A stretch of DNA of 64,000 bases. Source: Bacillota bacterium. Lineage in GTDB: Bacteria; Bacillota_I; Bacilli_A; RF39; UBA660. Position 1 is the stretch's first letter. Each line of letters opens with the position of its first letter. A program made the translations under genes and the position numbers. The stretch is from NCBI GenBank assembly GCA_015059335.1, contig SVAP01000001.1, positions 256,413-320,412 of the forward strand. Direction: 5' to 3'. A model generated the notes under the pieces. That model saw only the letters and a list, made by a program, of their open reading frames with translations. It did no database searches and had not been told where the DNA came from. Shown piece by piece: positions 47,131 to 53,514 of the stretch.

Positions 47131-47233
47131 CAAAAAAAGAAGGTTACACCCCCTGAGGGTAACCTTCAAAAAAGAATAAAAAGGGGTTGGCTAGTGTGAT
47201 ACTAGCACCAATTCGCCTAATTGGGAATTGGTG
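47131..47233 (-). ncRNA. Predicted small RNA upstream of recG (minus strand)
   Basis: On the minus strand a promoter (TTGACA at 47268-47263, 17-bp spacer, TAGTAT at 47245-47240) leads into a ~100-nt unit. It contains a 9-bp hairpin at the 5' end (CACCAATTC / GAATTGGTG, 47206-47233), a 5-bp hairpin (CTAGT / ACTAG, 47191-47205), an unpaired C-rich linker CCAACCCCTTTTT, and a 9-bp terminator hairpin (GAAGGTTAC / GTAACCTTC, 47139-47167) with TTTTTTTG. There is no open reading frame. The layout (5' hairpins, free CCCC, terminator) is that of trans-acting small RNAs that bind ribosome sites. The T-run exists only on the minus strand. Confidence 0.7.
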
Positions 47234-47356
47234 ATTCTTATACTAATTCATATTGAGTAATTTGTCAACAATTTTAAACATTTTTTTTAAATTTTTTTAA
47301 TTTTCTTTTGTTTATATTTAAAATTATATATAATTAAATTAGAAAGGGATGATAAT

Positions 47357-49354
47357 TTGGAACTTATTGAATTACCTGGTGTTGGACCTAAATCTTTAAA
47401 ATTATTAAACAAGCTAAATATATATACAATCAATGATTTATTAAATTATTATCCATTTAGATATGAAATAATAAAGTTGAATGATATAAATGAAATGAAT
47501 GATGGAGATAAAGTTTGTGTAGAAGGAATAATTGAAAAAATACCAACTCTAATTAGACTTAAAGGGAATATGAATAAAATGAGTTTTAGAATTGAAACTA
47601 ATAATACACTTGTTAATGTTGTGATTTTCAATAGAGGGTTTATGAAAAAACATTTTGAAATAGGTAAAACAATATTAATTATAGGTAAATGGGATAATAA
47701 AAAAAATACAATTGTTGCTTCAGATTTTAGATTTGAAAAAATAGATGGAACAAAAATCGAAAGTGTGTATAGAACTACTAATGGATTACCAAGGAAAAAT
47801 TTATCTAATTATATTGAAGAAGCAATAAAATTGAATATTAATGAATTAGAAGATTATATACCCAATTATTTGATTGAAAAATATAATTTTATGGATAAAG
47901 AAACCGCTGTAAAATTAGTACATAATCCTAGTGATATAAATGATATTAAACAAGCTCAAATCAGATTGAAATATGAAGAATTATTTACATTTATGTTAAA
48001 AATAAACTGTTTAAAATTAAAAAATCAAAATAATAATATTGGTTTAAAAAGAGATATAGATAATACAATGTTAACCGAGTTTATAAAATCTATACCGTTT
48101 GAATTAACAATTGATCAAATAAAAGCTGTGAATGATATTAAAACTGATATGATAGAACCTAGACGAATGAATAGACTGTTACAAGGTGATGTTGGTAGTG
48201 GAAAAACAATTGTTAGTATAATAGCATGTTATATAAACTATTTAAGTGGATATCAATCAGCGTTTATGGCACCAACTGAAATTTTAGCACGACAACATTA
48301 TGATAATATTAAAAGTTTATTTAATGGTTTAAATATTAAAATTGAGTTGCTTACAGGAAGTACTCCTAAAAAAGAAAAGAAAGAGATTTATAAAAAATTA
48401 AACAATAATGAAATTGATTTAATAATTGGTACTCACGCATTAATTCAAGATGAGGTTGAATATAATAATCTAGGATTGGTTATTACTGATGAACAACATA
48501 GATTTGGTGTTAATCAAAGATCCAATTTAAGAAATAAAGGTACTATGCCTGATATTTTATATATGAGTGCGACTCCTATTCCTAGAACATATGCTTTAAC
48601 TATATATGGTGACATGGATATATCAAGTATTAAAACTAGACCTACTGGTAGAAAAGATATTATAACTAAGGTTAAAACAAATAAAGAAATTATTGATGTA
48701 TTAAAATCAATTAAAATTGAATTAGATAACAATCATCAAGTATATGTCATTGCGCCATTAATTGAGGAAAGTGAAAAATCAGATATGGAAAATGTAATTA
48801 AACTAAAAGAAAAGTTTATAAAAGCATTTCCAAATCGAAATATAGAAATATTACATGGAAAAATGACGCCAATCGAGAAAGAAGAAATAATGAATAGTTT
48901 TTCTAAAAATGAAACAAATATTTTAATAAGTACTACTGTAATAGAAGTTGGTGTTGATGTTAAAAATGCTACTGTAATTACAATATTTGATGCTGATAGA
49001 TTTGGTTTATCAACATTACATCAATTAAGAGGTAGAGTAGGAAGAAATGATCTTCAATCATATTGTTTTTTAATTAGTGATAAATCTAAAGAGAGATTAC
49101 AAATATTAGAACATAGTAATGATGGATTTGAAATTAGTGAACAAGATTTTAAATTGAGGGGACAAGGAGATTTATTTGGCGTTAAACAAAGTGGTGATAT
49201 GAGTTTTAAAATCGCTAATATTAAGGATGATTTTAAAATACTTATGCAAGCAAAGCAAGATTCTTTAGAATTTTTAAATTCAAATTTAATTGACACACTT
49301 GACACAAATGGACATATAAAGAAAATCATTGAAAACATTGGGAATTTAAATTAG
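47357..49354 (+). CDS. recG: ATP-dependent DNA helicase RecG
   Basis: A 665-aa branch-migration helicase that remodels stalled forks and Holliday junctions. The N-terminal wedge/OB domain (ELPGVGPKSLKLLNKLNIYTINDLLNYYPFRYE) is followed by the helicase core: QGDVGSGKTIVSIIACY (Walker A), IIGTHALIQDEV, ITDEQHRFGVNQRS (DEQH box), MSATPIPRTYAL, ATVITIFDADRFGLSTLHQLRGRVGR (motif VI). It starts at TTG 47357 with AAAGGGATGAT upstream. It ends about 70 bases before a small-RNA promoter. Confidence 0.96.
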   Translation: MELIELPGVGPKSLKLLNKLNIYTINDLLNYYPFRYEIIKLNDINEMNDGDKVCVEGIIEKIPTLIRLKGNMNKMSFRIETNNTLVNVVIFNRGFMKKHFEIGKTILIIGKWDNKKNTIVASDFRFEKIDGTKIESVYRTTNGLPRKNLSNYIEEAIKLNINELEDYIPNYLIEKYNFMDKETAVKLVHNPSDINDIKQAQIRLKYEELFTFMLKINCLKLKNQNNNIGLKRDIDNTMLTEFIKSIPFELTIDQIKAVNDIKTDMIEPRRMNRLLQGDVGSGKTIVSIIACYINYLSGYQSAFMAPTEILARQHYDNIKSLFNGLNIKIELLTGSTPKKEKKEIYKKLNNNEIDLIIGTHALIQDEVEYNNLGLVITDEQHRFGVNQRSNLRNKGTMPDILYMSATPIPRTYALTIYGDMDISSIKTRPTGRKDIITKVKTNKEIIDVLKSIKIELDNNHQVYVIAPLIEESEKSDMENVIKLKEKFIKAFPNRNIEILHGKMTPIEKEEIMNSFSKNETNILISTTVIEVGVDVKNATVITIFDADRFGLSTLHQLRGRVGRNDLQSYCFLISDKSKERLQILEHSNDGFEISEQDFKLRGQGDLFGVKQSGDMSFKIANIKDDFKILMQAKQDSLEFLNSNLIDTLDTNGHIKKIIENIGNLN

Positions 49355-49390
49355 ACATTAAAATTTTAGAAAATATTAGTATAAATATTA

Positions 49391-49419
49391 TTGACATTTT
49401 TGTCATTTTCTAATATTAT
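49391..49419 (+). promoter_or_regulatory. Strong promoter of the downstream small RNA
   Basis: TTGACA (49391-49396), 17-bp spacer, TATTAT (49414-49419), right after recG; no gene follows on this strand within 1.4 kb. Confidence 0.75.
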
Positions 49420-49425
49420 GAATGT

Positions 49426-49524
49426 AGCGTGATAGTATAACACGCTCACTCTTACGATTCTATGTGAGAGTGTATTCAACCAAAACCCCCTGAGCCGTCC
49501 CTTAATTGGGGCGGTATTTTTTTT
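49426..49524 (+). ncRNA. Predicted small RNA downstream of recG (plus strand)
   Basis: A ~99-nt unit from a near-consensus promoter to a strong terminator. Elements in order: hairpin AGCGTG / CACGCT (49426-49446), hairpin CACTCT / AGAGTG (49447-49472), an unpaired C-rich linker CAACCAAAACCCCCTGA, and the GC-rich terminator CCGTCCC / GGGGCGG (49495-49514) followed by ATTTTTTTTG. This is the same architecture as the minus-strand RNA at 47131-47233. Both plus-strand sequences contain ACCCCCTGAG, so the two RNAs, made from opposite strands, are perfectly complementary over these 10 nt. There is no coding potential. Confidence 0.7.
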
Positions 49525-49688
49525 GCCCCAATTTATAAGGGTTTGTAGGGGATAGAATTCGTGATTTTTATTTTAGGTACGATTTGGGTACGATATTTTT
49601 GAATTAGATAAAATTATTTCTGAAAATTAAATCAAAAAAAATTCAGTGTGTATATCAAAAAATATATTTTCATTATAAAAAGAAGCGG
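49525..49688. other. Likely left border of the mobile element, integrase-type direct repeats
   Basis: No gene. GGTACGAT occurs twice, 11 bp apart (49576-49583 and 49587-49594), about one helical turn, as expected for arm-type binding sites of a tyrosine integrase. GCCCCAATT (49525-49533) can pair with AATTGGGGC (49504-49512) of the small-RNA terminator. The true attachment core is not identified, since the other end is not recognised in the window. Confidence 0.4.
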
Positions 49689-50848: not shown

Positions 50849-52279
50849 ATGTTAGCTCAAATTCCAGAAAATCTTTTAAAGTTAATAAAGGAAGGAGAAT
50901 GTTCGACAGTAGAATTTAAAACCGCAAAAAAGAATCTTCCGGAAAATTTGTTTGAAACAATTTGCTCTATGCTGAATAGAAATGGTGGACATATATTTTT
51001 AGGGATACAAGATGATGGAGAAATTGTTGGCGTATTTAAGGATTATATTAAAGAAATGAAAAAGAATTTTGCAAATTTGTGTAATAATACAGAAAAAATA
51101 AGTCCAACGGTTCATCTTGAAATAAAAGAGTTTTTTTATGGTGAAAAAGAAATATTATATATATATGTATACGAGAGTTCAGACGTACATAAAACGGCAA
51201 ATAAAATATTTGATCGAAATGAAGACGGAGATTTTGAAATTACTGGTAATACATCTTTGATTTCACAATTATATATTAGGAAAAGCAGTACGTATATAGA
51301 AAACAAAATATATCCGTTTGCTACAATTGAAGATTTAAGAAAAGATTTGATTGATAAAGCTAGAAATATGGCTGTAAATAGAGTAGCAAATCATCCTTGG
51401 GCTAAAATGAATGATTTAGAAATGTTGAGAAGTGCATCATTATATGAAAAAAATTTACAAACTGGTGAAGAAGGAATTAATTTAGCAGGATTATTATTAT
51501 TTGGTAAAGATGATGTAATAGCTTCTGCACTTTCTTACTATAAAACAGATGCTATATTAAAAGTTGATAATATTGATAGATATGATGATAGAGATGATAT
51601 AAGAACAAATCTGATAGAAAGCTATGAAAGATTAATAAATTTTGTTAAAAAACATTTAAATGAAAAGTTTTATATGGATGGCAATCAAAGAATTAATATT
51701 AGAGATGTTATAGCGCGTGAGTTATGTGTAAATTTATTAATTCACAGAGAATATGCAAATCCAGTTCCAGCAAGATTAATAATAACAAAAGAATCGATAA
51801 TGACTGAAAACGCTAATAAACCTAGAAATATTGGTTATATTGATCTTAACAACTATTCTCCATATCCTAAAAATCCTAAAATAGCCAATTTTTTTAAAGA
51901 AATAGGATTAGCAGAAGAGTTGGGTTCTGGAATAAAGACTATAACGAAATATAATAAGATATATAGTGGCGGGATTCCAAGTTTTAAAGACGATGAAATA
52001 TTTACTGTCACAGTTCCGTTAGCTCAAAAAGTAACTGATATAGCATTAGATGTTATTGAGGAAATGGATGAACTTAAAATTAAATTGTTTGATTATATTA
52101 AAACTAATAATGGAGTAAGTCGTCAAGCTATTAATGATTATATGTATCCATTATTTGATACAACAGATGAAAATGAATTAAATAATAAAACAAGATATAT
52201 TATTAATTTCTTAAGAGAAAGAGATTTAATTTTTAATAAAGGCACTAAGAACAAACCAAAATGGATAGCAAAAAAATAA
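50849..52279 (+). CDS. AlbA_2 / RecG-like ATP-binding-domain regulator
   Basis: A 476-aa protein of the group often mis-named 'ATP-dependent DNA helicase RecG-like'. The N-terminal AlbA_2 (Schlafen-type) domain has STVEFKTAKKNLPENLFETI and GGHIFLGIQDDGEIVGV (residues ~18-62). The middle has GINLAGLLLFGKDD, then ELCVNLLIHREYANPVPARLII (~290) and EELGSGIKTITKYN (~355), an HATPase_c_4-like fold. A winged-helix C-terminus (~415-476) ends the protein. No helicase motifs. Members are thought to be transcription regulators or RNA/DNA-binding proteins and are frequent in mobile DNA. AAAGGAGATGATAAT precedes the ATG. It is followed by a 10-bp tandem repeat array. Confidence 0.85.
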   Translation: MLAQIPENLLKLIKEGECSTVEFKTAKKNLPENLFETICSMLNRNGGHIFLGIQDDGEIVGVFKDYIKEMKKNFANLCNNTEKISPTVHLEIKEFFYGEKEILYIYVYESSDVHKTANKIFDRNEDGDFEITGNTSLISQLYIRKSSTYIENKIYPFATIEDLRKDLIDKARNMAVNRVANHPWAKMNDLEMLRSASLYEKNLQTGEEGINLAGLLLFGKDDVIASALSYYKTDAILKVDNIDRYDDRDDIRTNLIESYERLINFVKKHLNEKFYMDGNQRINIRDVIARELCVNLLIHREYANPVPARLIITKESIMTENANKPRNIGYIDLNNYSPYPKNPKIANFFKEIGLAEELGSGIKTITKYNKIYSGGIPSFKDDEIFTVTVPLAQKVTDIALDVIEEMDELKIKLFDYIKTNNGVSRQAINDYMYPLFDTTDENELNNKTRYIINFLRERDLIFNKGTKNKPKWIAKK

Positions 52280-52410: not shown

Positions 52411-53514
52411 TTATTCCAAGTTATCTATAACACTAACAACATTATCGAGGGCGGTACTAAACATATGAGAATATGTGTTTAGTGTTTCCTCGATTTTTGT
52501 ATGTCCTAAAAATTTAGCAACCAATGTAACATTAGCTCCATTGTTAATTAATAGAGATGCACATGAATGTCTAAAGTCATGTAATCTTATTGATTTTAAT
52601 CCAGCTTTGTTTGCTATTAAAGTTCTTCTGTCGTATATAGTGGTATCACTAATAGGTCTTGCGTCAGATACAACAAAGAAATCATCGTTAAAGTTACAAT
52701 ATTCCTTTTTAGACTGCTCATAGAGCATTTTAAGGTCGTTTAGAAGGACTTTTGTGATAGGAACAATACGATAACTATCTTTTGTCTTTGTATCCGAAAA
52801 TTCGAACTTTGTGCGGTTATTTAACTGGGTAATTTGTTTGTTAACGGATAACACCTTTTTATCGAAATAAATATCTTTCCAAGTTAAACCTTTTAATTCA
52901 CCTTTACGTAGTCCACAATAATAAAAAATTTCAAATACACATTTCCATCTAAGATCTTCTTCATAAGAAATAAACTTTTTAAATTCTTCGTAGTTATAGT
53001 AAGACATTTCTTTTCTTCTTTCATTAGGATCTTGGAACTTTGTCATTTTGTTGTAAACATTATTAAAATTAAATCCATGCCATTTAACACCAAAGTTAAG
53101 AATTGATCTAAGAAATTTGTAAATATCATTTTTATAACGTAAAGATATACCTGCTTTATTTATATCTCTTTTCCATTGCTCAAATTGCATAATATTAAAA
53201 TCTTTTATTTTTACAGGAAAGAAACATTCGATATATTTTTCTTTATAGCTATAACCACATAATGTAGTAGCTTTCATTATTTCGTCGTTATGCATTCTAA
53301 ATTCATCATATAGATCTTTAAATGTCATATTATTATCTTCAACTTTATCAGTAGAAGTAACCATAAACATTCTTTCAGCATCAACTGCTTCTTTTTTTGT
53401 AGCAAACTTTTTTGATTTATATTGATCGGGTTTACCAAATGCATCAGTATAATTTACTTTAAAATACCAACATCTACCATCTTTAGTAGCTTTTTTATCT
53501 TTATATATTGGCAC
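52411..53514 (-). CDS. int: Tyrosine integrase of the mobile element (Tn916/phage type)
   Basis: A 367-aa recombinase of the long, arm-binding type. Residues ~1-60 form an AP2-like arm-binding domain (KATKDGRCWYFKVNYTDAFG, SKKFATKKEAVDAERMF). A SAM-like core-binding domain follows (~65-170), then the catalytic domain with Arg in YYCGLRKGELKGLTW, His/Arg in LHDFRHSCASLL, His in FLGHTKIEETLNTYSHM and its Tyr. Start GTG 53514, with AAAGGA about 10 bases upstream; an 8-bp inverted repeat (ATTTACAC / GTGTAAAT) brackets this ribosome site. It reads leftward, towards the probable border at ~49.55 kb. It is clearly different from the chromosomal Xer at 9355. Confidence 0.93.
   Translation of the reverse strand: MPIYKDKKATKDGRCWYFKVNYTDAFGKPDQYKSKKFATKKEAVDAERMFMVTSTDKVEDNNMTFKDLYDEFRMHNDEIMKATTLCGYSYKEKYIECFFPVKIKDFNIMQFEQWKRDINKAGISLRYKNDIYKFLRSILNFGVKWHGFNFNNVYNKMTKFQDPNERRKEMSYYNYEEFKKFISYEEDLRWKCVFEIFYYCGLRKGELKGLTWKDIYFDKKVLSVNKQITQLNNRTKFEFSDTKTKDSYRIVPITKVLLNDLKMLYEQSKKEYCNFNDDFFVVSDARPISDTTIYDRRTLIANKAGLKSIRLHDFRHSCASLLINNGANVTLVAKFLGHTKIEETLNTYSHMFSTALDNVVSVIDNLE

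Follow-up and report, generated by a model that had tools for sequence, protein, structure and literature searches.

The window analysed here, a stretch of 64,000 nucleotides, contains recG (47357..49354, plus strand) flanked by two short intergenic units, which we refer to as sRNA1 and sRNA2. Each has its own promoter, a stable predicted fold and an intrinsic terminator, features by which trans-acting small RNAs are recognized. Both units had been proposed in a preliminary description of this DNA, and direct reading of the sequence confirmed the promoter, the two hairpins, the linker and the terminator of each, together with their coordinates.

sRNA1 occupies the gap between rpsU and recG and is read from the minus strand. 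Its promoter (47240..47268, minus strand) combines a -35 element, TTGACA (47268-47263), with a -10 element, TAGTAT (47245-47240), across a 17-nucleotide spacer, and upstream of sRNA1 in relatives a TTGAC sequence and a TAnnAT-type -10 element are kept. The predicted transcript of ~108 nt (47131..47238, minus strand, read from ~47238 to 47131) would consist of hairpin 1 (ACCAATTC..GAATTGGT), hairpin 2 (GCTAGTATCACACTAGC), the linker CCAACCCC and a terminator hairpin (47167-47139, minus strand) whose U-tract runs down to 47131. sRNA2 follows recG on the plus strand. Its promoter (49391..49419, plus strand) reads TTGACA (49391-49396), a spacer of 17 and TATTAT (49414-49419), and relatives carry a similar one. 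The predicted RNA of ~100 nt (49424..49524, plus strand) contains two covarying hairpins, a C-rich linker and a terminator that extends to 49524. The linker, which may act as a seed (UUCAACCAAAACCCCCUGAG / TTCAACCAAAACCCCCTGAG; 49475..49494, plus strand), is predicted to be single-stranded in the folded RNA.

Covariance searches of related genomes recovered both RNAs. sRNA1 is a family-specific, near-universal RNA: its model, R1, which matches the window at 47238-47163 with 98.5 bits, has matches in 256 of 291 genomes from the host's family, covering 143 of 150 genera. When genomes were drawn from the order, 108 of 117 matched, and all those listed belong to the host's family; a class-wide draw gave 17 of 18 family members versus none of 131 other genomes. 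The fold of sRNA1 (z -4.2) beats 200 of 200 shuffles. Hairpin 1 displays a few compensatory changes, and hairpin 2 is nearly without variation and is thus uninformative on structure. Hairpin 2 and CCAACCCCTTTTTATTC form a near-invariant core (47170..47205, minus strand), the columns of hairpin 2 and the linker (GCTAGTATCACACTAGCCAACCCCTTTTTATTC) having an identity of 99-100% over 68 copies. In rare variants the hairpin-2 loop is altered (L284 1460-1534, L286 1459-1534), hairpin 2 being otherwise invariant.

A search for targets of the sRNA1 linker with the pattern AAAAAGGRGTTGG returned matches beyond the sRNA1 gene itself in 20 of 145 genomes, with no gene in common. Because this almost invariant linker matches no recurrent target that was found, sRNA1 probably has a further function beyond that of carrying the decoy discussed below. 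Two other matches to sRNA1 were noted. Within rsmH of two genera (L278 ~1248, L279 ~280), the coding sequence is exactly complementary to the linker over a long stretch, AAAAAGAATAAAAAGGGGTTGGC, which may be a chance occurrence or a target. In three genera the leader of a gene encoding MKNYFFKPELENLSQGARLKFVRELRYMSK... (L267, L268, L283 ~1500) includes a sequence, AAAGAATAAAAAGGRGTTGGCTAGT, that is almost perfectly complementary to the sRNA1 core and ends in a hairpin and a U-tract. This gene is a putative mobile-element gene, and its leader is possibly a mobile-element sponge or an antisense relative of sRNA1.

For sRNA2, the covariance model (R2) matched 82 of 116 genera. The matches often adjoin recG, many lie ~2-5 kb away from sRNA1, and DNA searches revealed that the order sRNA1-recG-sRNA2 is held in many relatives. 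Those relatives that bear names are MAGs under the label Bacilli, Tenericutes or Bacillota. A search for missed copies in 26 genomes, most of them without a model match, yielded the linker in one (G063) and two chance matches; the genomes without a match possibly represent true absence or assembly gaps. The sRNA2 fold (z -4.7) beats 200 of 200 shuffles, and its structure is further borne out by covariation. Over 62 copies, 15 of 15 stem pairs have changes on both sides and 96.2% of cells are paired; the alignment behind these counts had been fitted to the model and is biased in its favour. Of 500 shuffles, 0 scored as high, and slid structures came nowhere near. Within the linker of the same 62 copies, CCCCCUGA is 98-100% and AACC 94-98% conserved.

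The RsaE/RoxS, LhrC and csRNA RNAs of Firmicutes are likewise short; their hairpins are joined by C-rich linkers that stay unpaired, and they end in a strong terminator. sRNA1 and sRNA2 resemble them in general plan, but the motif and the target class differ. Neither is a member of the families in Rfam, whose scope includes RsaE/RoxS and LhrC: no match to either RNA was obtained in the window at the gathering threshold, and a permissive search gave chance-level matches only. The two RNAs also share this general plan with each other. The suggestion in the preliminary description that they might be relatives is not supported, as their hairpins, linkers and covariance models all differ. Viral and phage collections produced only three contigs and no phage match, so that a phage RNA is not suggested, and the literature search turned up no paper that deals with small RNAs in RF39-type bacteria.

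The feature that joins the two RNAs is a complementarity between the terminator tip of sRNA1 and the linker of sRNA2. The anti-seed CUCAGGGGGU (47148..47157, minus strand, read 47157-47148) and ACCCCCUGAG (plus strand, 49485-49494) are perfect complements over 10 nt, as first described; in most relatives the match is 8-9 nt, not 10. The sRNA1 tip reads CAGGGGG in 61 of 73 copies, usually as (C/U)UCAGGGGG, though the terminator stem varies widely; it reads UAGGGGG in one copy and is unrelated (e.g. UUCG, AAAAG) in the remaining 11. Among the 46 genomes with both RNAs, 38 have a perfect match of at least 8 nt between the sRNA1 terminator region and the sRNA2 linker CCCCCUGA(A/G), a count that includes four genomes whose tip and linker were read directly. 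Shuffled terminators gave a mean of 0.9 and a maximum of 4, which places the match beyond chance. The G-run had been assigned to the terminator loop. It does sit at the terminator tip, where fold prediction has it partly paired rather than free. A constant tip on a variable stem is the trace that would be expected from selection on a loop-linker interaction, and it is also the sequence pattern of a sponge, in which the complement of the partner's seed is conserved and its surroundings are variable. The proposal of a small RNA with a sponge partner is well supported, since both RNAs and the motif through which they match are kept across the family. The sponge appears to be dispensable, because 11 of 73 sRNA1 copies are without the anti-seed and the sRNA2 linker is retained in these lineages where it was looked at.

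Bacterial RNA sponges such as those of Caulobacter and Vibrio (PMC12559287, PMC9732341) are RNAs that pair with a small RNA and inactivate it. The present case differs in that the putative decoy is the terminator tip of a free-standing RNA, sRNA1, and in that the partners flank a single gene, recG.

To find targets, the complement of the sRNA2 linker was searched for in relatives, and the sites fell into three classes. One was the antisense strand of sRNA2 and of terminator modules related to it, another was the tip of sRNA1, and the third comprised multicopy loci for tiny hydrophobic peptides. In this third class, UUCAGGGGGU (the motif is also given as UUCAGGGGG) lies 32-57 nt, mostly 32-43 nt, before the ATG of genes for hydrophobic peptides of 20-40 residues. 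The pattern TTCAGGGGGT..RGG..ATG, in which RGG is Shine-Dalgarno-like, gave 57 matches in 386 genomes versus 12 for the reversed pattern. Eleven of the 57 were sRNA2 antisense and were removed, and one locus per genome was read from the remainder. Nearly all of these loci lead hydrophobic ORFs of 20-40 residues, in 12 genera, the exceptions being G250, which is without such an ORF, and a doubtful one in G299. G022 adds a thirteenth genus, in which the site stands in the 3' UTR, immediately behind the stop codon of the seven copies that encode MKKDCQILFHYIIILLLLVIIIYLLNQQ or variants of it. The sites are often multicopy (G021, G031, G022, G106, G044, G202, G300) and the peptide loci dispersed (L310, L314, L316, L317, L318, L321, L322, L327, L328, L330, L334). 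A conserved, exposed seed is thus accompanied by conserved complementary sites in peptide leaders.

Examples of the peptides are MSKKDFLIGLLIIIIFILLVIILKLI, MGKKDFLILALLIIIFLLIILIFKLI, MNKLFILNILLILVIIVIVIFN and MKDFIISFLLIIIFILVLYVVGLI. Many of the peptides start with (S/N)KKD followed by a hydrophobic stretch. Comparison with Pfam and NCBIfam gave no meaningful match, a weak test at such short lengths. Between the copies in G031, 27 codon differences are synonymous and 35 non-synonymous, with the hydrophobic character kept, which is modest sequence evidence that the ORFs code. Found in 13 genera and mostly 20-40 residues long, the peptides fall within the bounds used for small hydrophobic peptides of type I systems (20-60 residues, structured leader).

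The predicted pairing often extends further than the core motif. It runs past CCCCCUGAA into CCAAAA in G021, G022, G092 and G076, and in G031, where sRNA2 reads GGGTCAACCAAAACCCCC, it reaches into CAACC. Predicted duplex energies are approximately -27 to -37 kcal/mol for most extended matches and approximately -21 for the shortest, values for which controls are weak since the sites were found through a motif search. In most of the peptide leaders, folding is predicted to occlude the Shine-Dalgarno region. A simple sigma-70 scan indicated a possible promoter for a convergent antisense RNA at several peptide loci; sRNA2 need not be their main antitoxin, because these loci may encode such an RNA of their own. 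At several loci the start of the leader and the convergent downstream strand are similar, forming an inverted repeat.

The window's own genome, which is 90% complete, yielded no peptide gene with a site. Both there and in a sister species, an amidase-like gene with a GTG start (VVIDAGHGG; L261 537-591, G000:C1:67537, and L262 minus strand ~542, G002:C18) has a Shine-Dalgarno that overlaps with TTCAGGGGG, making this gene a candidate direct target of sRNA2. The sites named earlier as possible targets, AAAGGGGG near position 718 and AGGGGG before dnaD, are without the UCAGGGGG needed by the conserved seed and are not supported; the supported sites are the peptide-gene leaders in relatives.

Sites of the amidase type raise the question of whether sRNA2 is a general C-rich small RNA that blocks the Shine-Dalgarno sites of many ordinary mRNAs in the style of RsaE, LhrC or csRNA, with the peptide genes as some of its targets and sRNA1 as a second such RNA with G-rich targets of its own. 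The single-copy sites that overlap a Shine-Dalgarno at the amidase-like gene (G000:C1:67537, G002:C18), at dnaB in G004 and at others speak for this, as does the almost invariant linker that sRNA1 possesses. However, among the sites read no single-copy target recurs across genera, the amidase-like target being common to two members of one genus only, whereas peptide leaders recur in 12. Pairing with a Shine-Dalgarno alone would also leave the conservation of CAACC and CCAAAA unexplained, and the search with the sRNA1 linker brought up no target that recurs. We consider this general role unlikely.

The roles could also be reversed, with sRNA1 as the effector and sRNA2 as its sponge, or with a duplex that controls only the stability of both RNAs. 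sRNA1 is indeed better conserved than sRNA2 and occurs more widely. Yet the recurrent target motif fits the exposed linker of sRNA2, the target-like sequence sits in the terminator tip of sRNA1 as it would in a decoy, and the sRNA2 linker is retained where the sRNA1 tip has been lost. Such a reversal seems to us very improbable.

We instead favour as probable a circuit with sRNA2 as repressor of the peptide mRNAs and sRNA1 as the carrier of a decoy that copies the target site. The two would be independent small RNAs, transcribed around recG in the core genome of the family and acting in trans. The sRNA2 linker (CAACCAAAACCCCCUGAA) would base-pair with UUCAGGGGGU(UUUGG) in the peptide leaders, or in the 3' UTR in one genus. 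A duplex formed at a standby-like site or immediately before the Shine-Dalgarno would keep the mRNA from being translated and leave it open to cleavage. The terminator tip of sRNA1, a copy of the target site (UCAGGGGG), would bind the same linker, and production of sRNA1 would then titrate or destabilise sRNA2 and release the putatively toxic peptides.

Elements of this scheme have precedents in E. coli. IstR-1/tisB, ohsC/shoB and Orz/zor are alike in that an RNA pairs in the leader of a small-hydrophobic-peptide mRNA, upstream of a sequestered start region. The peptide leaders described above recall tisB, where IstR-1 and ribosomes compete for a standby site (PMC4147584), and sRNA2 may act in a comparable way. 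The antitoxins of these three systems adjoin their toxins, whereas sRNA2 is a fixed core locus that matches many dispersed and differing peptide genes; here, in addition, a second RNA carries a decoy site. A trans-acting small RNA with a sponge is known already; here the arrangement would be applied to type-I-toxin-like mRNAs. The finding holds up more strongly than first put forward, and of the readings considered the sponge idea is the best supported.

The sRNA2 gene is also bordered by mobile DNA. An integrative element starts just after sRNA2 and extends from 49576 to beyond 64000 of the window (G000:C8 ~305988-322555). At its near end lies an arm-site-like repeat, GGTACGATTTGGGTACGAT (49576..49594, plus strand), and a similar repeat occurs ~16.5 kb on, at G000:C8 ~322535, followed by a second CAACCAAAACCCCCTGAAG-terminator module. 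The element encodes a tyrosine integrase (52411..53514, minus strand; Pfam Phage_integrase 7e-28, Arm-DNA-bind_4) and a protein with a Schlafen AlbA_2 domain (50849-52279). In G005 an integrase gene lies less than ~150 bases from the sRNA2 linker, with two more modules on the same contig, and in several sRNA2 matches the contig stops immediately 3' of the linker. By these signs the 3' end of sRNA2 resembles an attachment site used by tyrosine-integrase elements. A further locus at which such an element seems to have inserted at an sRNA2 3' end is L295 1-19101, and there is a second sRNA2-like module with a differing 5' part, GGCACTTTTGACCATAAAAGTACCAATCAACC (L227 2580-2700, G000:C8 ~322580-322700), that is near-identical to one in G042 (L148). 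The Islander report describes islands that integrate at the end of tRNA and tmRNA genes, the element resupplying that end (PMC4383910). The host gene here would instead be sRNA2 with its terminator, integration being deduced from sequence only.

A role as attachment core may account for part of the conservation of CCCCCTGAAG, and the match between the RNAs could then be mainly a DNA feature, with RNA complementarity secondary. In keeping with this, CCCCCTGAAG with its terminator recurs as a module in many genomes, behind 5' parts that have no relation to one another, in arrays with 2-16 kb between modules, and beside integrases and arm-like repeats, and the contig breaks just 3' of the linker point the same way. 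An attachment role nevertheless leaves the remainder of the linker unexplained, and likewise the tip of sRNA1 and the peptide leaders. It accounts neither for the CAACCAAAA half of the linker and the covarying hairpins nor for an anti-seed within the tip of the variable sRNA1 terminator, the complementarity in the peptide leaders extends past the attachment core, and an integrase exploits a site that is already conserved rather than producing one. We regard the match as a DNA feature in the main to be improbable.

Returning to the repressor and its decoy, a broader reading is that a core small RNA serves throughout the family as the shared, antitoxin-like repressor of many dispersed, sequence-diverse membrane peptide genes, that sRNA1 is its dedicated sponge and mimics the target site, and that the sRNA2 gene is a landing site for integrative elements. 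We advance this master switch tentatively, as a real possibility that falls somewhat short of an even chance. The two conserved RNA families are new to Rfam and come from a large, essentially uncultured lineage, and the predicted three-way circuit of repressor, decoy and peptide mRNAs can be tested in laboratory hosts. If true, a central antitoxin-like RNA would be an unusual means of silencing multicopy toxic peptides, and the landing of islands in the sRNA2 gene would tie mobile elements to control of the circuit.
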